Source: Candidatus Woesearchaeota archaeon (GTDB lineage: Archaea; Nanobdellota; Nanobdellia; Woesearchaeales; JACPIF01). Taken from it: a stretch of DNA of 64,000 bases. The translations under genes and the position numbers were made by a program. The DNA is taken from NCBI GenBank assembly GCA_016188215.1, contig JACPIF010000004.1:34236-98235 (forward strand). The letters run 5' to 3'. Shown piece by piece: positions 32,963 to 33,704 of this stretch; within the stretch, counting starts at the first letter, position 1; the number at the start of each line of letters is the position of its first letter. The notes under the pieces were generated by a model. That model did not search any database, had not been told where the DNA came from, and worked only from the letters and a program-made list of their open reading frames with translations.

Positions 32963-33295
32963 CTATTGCAGTATCTGCGGCAGCTTTATTGTAAATGCCG
33001 AGCGTGGCATAATCTCATCAATACCAACTTCTTTCGCTTTCTTTATTAAGTCAGTCTGCACATGAGAAACGTAAGCTACTATCCTAGCCTTTGAATTCTC
33101 TTTGATAAGCTTGGCAGTTTCCACAAGATTAAATCCTGCATTCAAGTCCCATATTATTAAAGTAGGATTTTCTTTTAGAGCAGGTGCTAATGTTTCTTTG
33201 TCAGGAACAATCTTGATAGGCTTGCCGAGCAGGGCTGCGGTTGTCTCTATCTTAGTCTGGAAGAAGAGGTCGTTGCAGATTACTAGAGTAGCCAT
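32963..33295 (-). CDS. Receiver-like (CheY-fold) protein
   Basis: LIIWDLNAGFNLVETAKLIKENSKARIVAYVSHVQTDLIKKAKEVGIDEIMPRSAF. Confidence 0.65.
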   Translation of the reverse strand: MATLVICNDLFFQTKIETTAALLGKPIKIVPDKETLAPALKENPTLIIWDLNAGFNLVETAKLIKENSKARIVAYVSHVQTDLIKKAKEVGIDEIMPRSAFTIKLPQILQ

Positions 33296-33326: not shown

Positions 33327-33704
33327 TTATCGCTTCTCAACAATGAAAGCAGTGCCGCCGAAATCCACAAAAGTGATTTCGTCGCCCTCATTTAAGTTGC
33401 CCACCAAGTCTTCATGGTATTCTGCATCCAATGTCTCGTAAGAATACAAATCCATTATTTGCATTTTGTCTTCTGCCTTAGAGATGACCTGGCCGTGCTT
33501 CCGGATAATCTCAAGGTCCTGCACGAAATCATGCGGAGGGGCGGTAAAGCTTTCATTAACGCCAGAGAACAAGCCATGCACAGAAACCTTTACCTTAGTA
33601 TGGGTATGAGTGCCGGTAACGACACTAACTACCTCTTTCACCATGTACGGCTCTCCTTTATGCAGGATGTATGAGCCTTTCTTGAGCTTTTTGACTTCTA
33701 GCAC
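33327..33704 (-). CDS. Translation factor aIF5A homolog lacking the hypusine lysine
   Basis: VKKLKKGSYILHKGEPYMVKEVVSVVTGTHTHTKVKVSVHGLFSG...QIMDLYSYETLD. Confidence 0.88.
   Translation of the reverse strand: MLEVKKLKKGSYILHKGEPYMVKEVVSVVTGTHTHTKVKVSVHGLFSGVNESFTAPPHDFVQDLEIIRKHGQVISKAEDKMQIMDLYSYETLDAEYHEDLVGNLNEGDEITFVDFGGTAFIVEKR

Follow-up and report, generated by a model that had tools for sequence, protein, structure and literature searches.

A gene in the window (the whole 64,000-nucleotide stretch that was analysed, G000:C7:34236-98235) encodes an archaeal IF5A in which the lysine that normally carries hypusine is replaced by threonine. The protein is one of a set of archaeal IF5A paralogs with a Thr-type loop that form a conserved subfamily of their own, for which we propose the name IF5A-T. 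Nearly all archaea and eukaryotes possess IF5A, and the lysine that becomes hypusinated in it is considered both necessary and strictly conserved. Our preferred reading, to which we give a probability of about 0.45, is that IF5A-T binds the ribosomal E site and acts independently of hypusine as a specialised partner of canonical IF5A. The subfamily is previously undescribed in the literature we found: no published description was identified, and a search on IF5A in Woesearchaeota and DPANN returned nothing relevant (preprints and most subscription journals lay outside its coverage).

The features of the gene are as follows:

33327..33704, minus strand: IF5A paralog with a threonine loop; GTG-initiated ORF of 125 aa whose product has KOW-like domain I and OB-like domain II
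33594..33614, minus strand: domain I loop GTHTHTK, equivalent to GKHGHSK of the canonical copy in the same genome, from sequence and a gap-free alignment to IF5A entries of the PDB
33609..33611, minus strand: codon (act) of Thr32 at the hypusine lysine position, which is Thr in 47/47 paralogs and Lys in 88/88 canonical sequences

The translated ORF contains SVVTGTHTHTKVKV, and the loop codons on the minus strand are ggc act cat acc cat act aag, as the original prediction had read them. That prediction also recognized an IF5A homolog with threonine in place of the hypusine lysine, and here too it was right. The NCBIfam model NF003076 matches the ORF over nearly its full length (residues 3-123; 91.8 bits, E 2.6e-26), and its closest relatives in the PDB, archaeal IF5As, align without gaps through GKHGSAK and place Thr32 on the hypusine lysine. 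The Lys-to-Thr change is genuine and in register. The position given earlier took in only part of the loop; the relevant feature is the entire gene. All scores are below the curated cut-offs (138 for NF003076; 64.9 bits against 75.45 for TIGR00037; 25.6 bits against 27.1 for PF21485). An AF2 model (pLDDT 88.1, pTM 0.67) predicts a two-domain KOW and OB fold, the best Foldseek matches of which in the PDB are archaeal IF5A (TMq 0.69-0.77). On the same strand, 31 bp downstream, is a 110-aa ORF (32963-33295) that appears receiver-like (CheY-type) by eye, for which no Pfam match was found.

Profile searches of 61 genomes identified a second, low-scoring IF5A in eight, that of the window included, and only this kind in one, G009. 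The eight low-scoring copies outside the window's genome all translate to GTHSH(S/T)K. A nine-row profile (A1), searched against 359 genomes of the order (E <= 5e-31), recovered the Thr-type paralog in ~51, about one in seven, with two copies truncated at contig ends. Every ortholog with a readable loop from unselected profile searches of other genomes has threonine. The genomes compared are draft bins, not cultures; where the GTDB records that carry IF5A-T are named, they are Woesearchaeota and Nanoarchaeota, apart from one Altiarchaeales single-cell record, and the remainder are archaeon bins. No IF5A-T was found outside the order in a phylum-wide sample, the single match (G515, from a sister order) being of the Lys type and grouping with its own order once more sequences of that order were added. 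Matches in Diapherotrites, Altiarchaeales IMC4 and Micrarchaeum were rejected as IF5A-T because they are canonical and of the Lys type. We also rejected a viral or mobile origin, as no relative of IF5A-T was present among the viral contigs (viral_contigs).

The nearest sequences to the window protein, L072, L073 and L074, are all of the Thr type. The closest by path, L072 (MCBE01000217.1), is labelled Altiarchaeales WOR_SM1_SCG. Its single-cell assembly of 2.5 Mb contains six IF5A matches, mostly partial; thus, the assembly is probably mixed, and its label or purity is doubtful.

The Thr-type proteins form one clade (support 100/100), which persists (100/99) when nine columns of the loop are taken out along with the longest branches and 24 canonical sequences of the sister order are brought in. 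The window protein has both the G-T-H-x-H-x-K loop and this placement. The clade lies outside the canonical IF5A clade of its own order and is not nested in it, so the duplication behind the Thr type is old or has evolved fast; the Thr branch is long and the alignment has only ~122 columns, which puts the depth of the duplication beyond the resolution of the tree.

The genome that contains the window (1.11 Mb, 13 contigs, 91% complete) also encodes the following:

G000:C3:14967-15350: canonical aIF5A with loop PGKHGHSK; 161.8 bits, above the NF003076 cut-off
G000:C2:13051-13971, plus strand: DHS-family gene (L001), PF01916 above the Pfam cut-off and the only PF01916 gene in the genome

The original prediction had suggested that this lineage may lack the deoxyhypusine pathway, and had pointed to a second, canonical aIF5A as evidence to the contrary. 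Both that gene and a deoxyhypusine synthase (DHS)-family gene with the catalytic lysine of the SWGK motif (SEGVSWGKF) are present; loss of the pathway is thus not supported for this genome, and replacement of canonical IF5A by IF5A-T is refuted for it. The DHS-family protein (377 aa) is divergent and scores below the cut-offs of its best model, NF002006 (243 bits against 434), and of TIGR00321 (167 against 304). It belongs to a long DHS-like subfamily (L001, L213, L218; ~355-377 aa, GGLSGCxYSE..SWGK), the only DHS-family type in this genome. In at least two relatives the long type occurs beside another DHS-family gene, PRK02301-like in G148 and higher-scoring in G051. Consequently its exact substrate is uncertain, and the canonical copy is probably, but not provably, hypusinated.

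Across the order, 43/51 genomes with the Thr paralog have canonical IF5A and 50/51 have a DHS-family gene. Thus, IF5A-T is an addition to canonical IF5A, not a substitute for it. The canonical copy was not seen in the other 8/51 carriers, including G009, which has 95% completeness; together with the divergence of the only DHS-family protein of the window's genome, this is what could be said for a lineage that dropped hypusination and relies on IF5A-T instead. As canonical IF5A is also missing from 27/308 non-carriers, a background of incomplete bins, the excess is not significant (Fisher p 0.13), and we regard replacement as very improbable.

The hypusine position is occupied by threonine in every full-length paralog, never by serine or any other residue. 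G31, H33, H35 and K37 are likewise invariant among these 47, and G34 of the canonical loop is replaced by S, M, T or C. The loop is the most conserved seven-residue stretch of the subfamily, a ranking for which the genome_contigs set was partly picked with a loop-containing pattern and with which the unselected profile-search sets concur. M84, D85, E90 and T91 of domain II are as in IF5A. Values of dN/dS for the seven computable close pairs are 0.035-0.133 (rough where dS exceeds 1 and is saturated); they point to purifying selection and rule out decay of a dispensable gene. An assembly error or a decaying pseudogene would have to account for the same loop in ~50 independent genomes, with open frames and dN/dS far below 1. 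We found nothing in favour of this explanation, which has a negligible probability, and reject it.

The paralogs differ at several positions where canonical IF5A shows little or no variation: S28 to V/I, P64 to V/I/L, K50 mostly to E, and W113 to V/I. Because of these changes the ribosome contacts of IF5A-T cannot be assumed, and contacts may have been altered or lost. The substitutions, among them the charge reversal at K50, would suit a protein that acts off the ribosome as an RNA- or protein-binding regulator and uses the loop for a different ligand (THxH might bind metal or phosphate), as would the patchy distribution and the existence of derived relatives that lack the loop or the N domain. 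Retention of the loop G, H, H and K and of the four domain II residues as in IF5A argues against such a regulator, and we consider it unlikely. The derived relatives are members of family f87. L168 (G354:C59:17833-18198, minus strand) has lost the loop motif and reads TASSDANAK, and the ORFs of L173 (G355:C110) and L174 (G352:C38), of 84 and 74 aa, apparently comprise the C-terminal domain only. Support for the placement of the f87 proteins in the Thr clade is weak.

Gene order around IF5A-T is fixed in one family only, f10, and no operon kept across families was found. Members of f10 have an S4/RsuA-RluB-type pseudouridine synthase 3' of IF5A-T on the same strand, in most cases 5-31 bp away, and genes for RNase HII and SMC are also nearby; the other families, that of the window protein included, lack this context. 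The S4-domain RsuA/RluB-like synthase was seen downstream of the paralog at L079, L080, L082, L083, L085, L087, L092 and L102-L104. To our knowledge, enzymes of this type are unusual in archaea.

The invariant threonine at the modified-lysine position means that deoxyhypusine synthase cannot modify it. A different IF5A chemistry, the second possibility raised by the original prediction, may still apply to this paralog. A different modification of Thr32 by another enzyme, so that the chemistry was replaced and not lost, would be consistent with the strict choice of threonine over serine. There is a parallel in bacterial EF-P, where a change of the tip residue can go together with a change of its modification (PMC6544042, PMC11611912). 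No neighbouring candidate modifier gene is conserved across families, however, and the bacterial paralog EfpL works unmodified; we therefore think such a modification quite unlikely.

The reading we prefer is that IF5A-T is a partner of canonical, hypusinated IF5A. Like IF5A and EF-P, it would still bind in the ribosomal E site beside the P-site tRNA, and its loop tip would presumably be unmodified and reach less far. Its task may be to tune or relieve certain pauses only, in the manner of EfpL in E. coli; general polyproline rescue would not be part of it. The IF5A fold, the kept loop residues, monophyly, low dN/dS, co-occurrence with the canonical factor, the translation-related neighbour in f10 (the pseudouridine synthase) and the precedent of EfpL all speak for it. 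The kept loop frame with its His and Lys residues would in particular favour a role for the loop. We tentatively suggest, at less than even odds, that IF5A-T is a second archaeal IF5A whose work on the ribosome needs no hypusine and whose invariant threonine tip lies at the end of the P-site tRNA, possibly with a modification of its own. Points against the partnership are the altered canonical residues and the patchy distribution. Threonine is short and uncharged relative to the arginine of EfpL, which weighs against an EfpL-like role, and the f87 relatives that lack the loop or their entire N domain weigh against a strict role at the peptidyl transferase centre.

IF5A-T could instead sit in the E site without stimulating catalysis, either as a competitor of canonical IF5A or as a dormancy or preservation factor on idle ribosomes. 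The residue responsible for catalytic reach has been lost while the rest of the fold is kept. Foldseek matches of the model in the PDB include idle ribosomes from eggs and from S. pombe, and eIF5A is reported on dormant ribosomes (PMC11063288). Conservation is highest in the loop, which suggests more than space-filling, and the neighbourhood comparison revealed no stress-linked genes around IF5A-T. A non-catalytic occupant of the E site thus appears doubtful.

According to Prunetti et al. (PMC5178350), the hypusine lysine is strictly conserved and required in eukaryotes, and the 2024 study of EfpL considered the loop-tip residue of eukaryotes and archaea to be limited to lysine (PMC11611912). 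Judged from its sequences, IF5A-T is an exception to the lysine-only rule. A conserved IF5A subfamily that lacks the lysine and is kept beside the canonical factor is a natural experiment on a hypusine-free loop, and it offers one more functional lead on how translation is controlled in uncultured DPANN archaea, for which such leads are few. If IF5A-T proves to be active on the ribosome without hypusine, the rule that this lysine is always hypusinated in archaea and eukaryotes would be broken.

A shortened IF5A was seen in a sister order, where 26/125 genomes (E <= 2e-20) encode a mini-IF5A of ~64 aa that consists of the KOW domain only (L207, G532:C34:4580-4771, plus strand; also L205, L206, L208, L211 and L212); almost all of them have a complete canonical IF5A as well. 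Most copies keep the lysine in a loop of the form SDIGK(H/Q)GxxK, and the mini-IF5A, which has no domain II, may serve as a DHS substrate.

Among known systems, IF5A-T is closest to archaeal and eukaryotic IF5A (NF003076, TIGR00037; PDB 8put, 1eif, 1bkb). It has the same length and two-domain fold, the same loop frame and loop length with the loop Gly, His and distal Lys, and the MD..(S/T)(Y/F)ET motif of domain II. It differs in that it has no lysine to hypusinate, the Gly after the His is replaced, and it falls below the cut-offs of both models and in a separate clade. IF5A-T also resembles bacterial EF-P with tips other than lysine (Arg, Asn, Gln, Met, Ser, Gly), although EF-P models match it at ~32 bits only. 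A loose analogue is EfpL (YeiP; PDB 8s8u), found in E. coli and its relatives, likewise a paralog beside the main factor and with a tip that lacks the canonical modification; its function overlaps that of EF-P (PMC11611912). EfpL is bacterial and has a loop two residues longer with an unmodified Arg tip, and both EF-P and EfpL have a third domain and a length of ~185 aa, whereas IF5A-T is a two-domain protein of 125 aa with a loop of normal length and a Thr tip. IF5A-T thus parallels the diversification of EF-P and EfpL, so far known only in bacteria.
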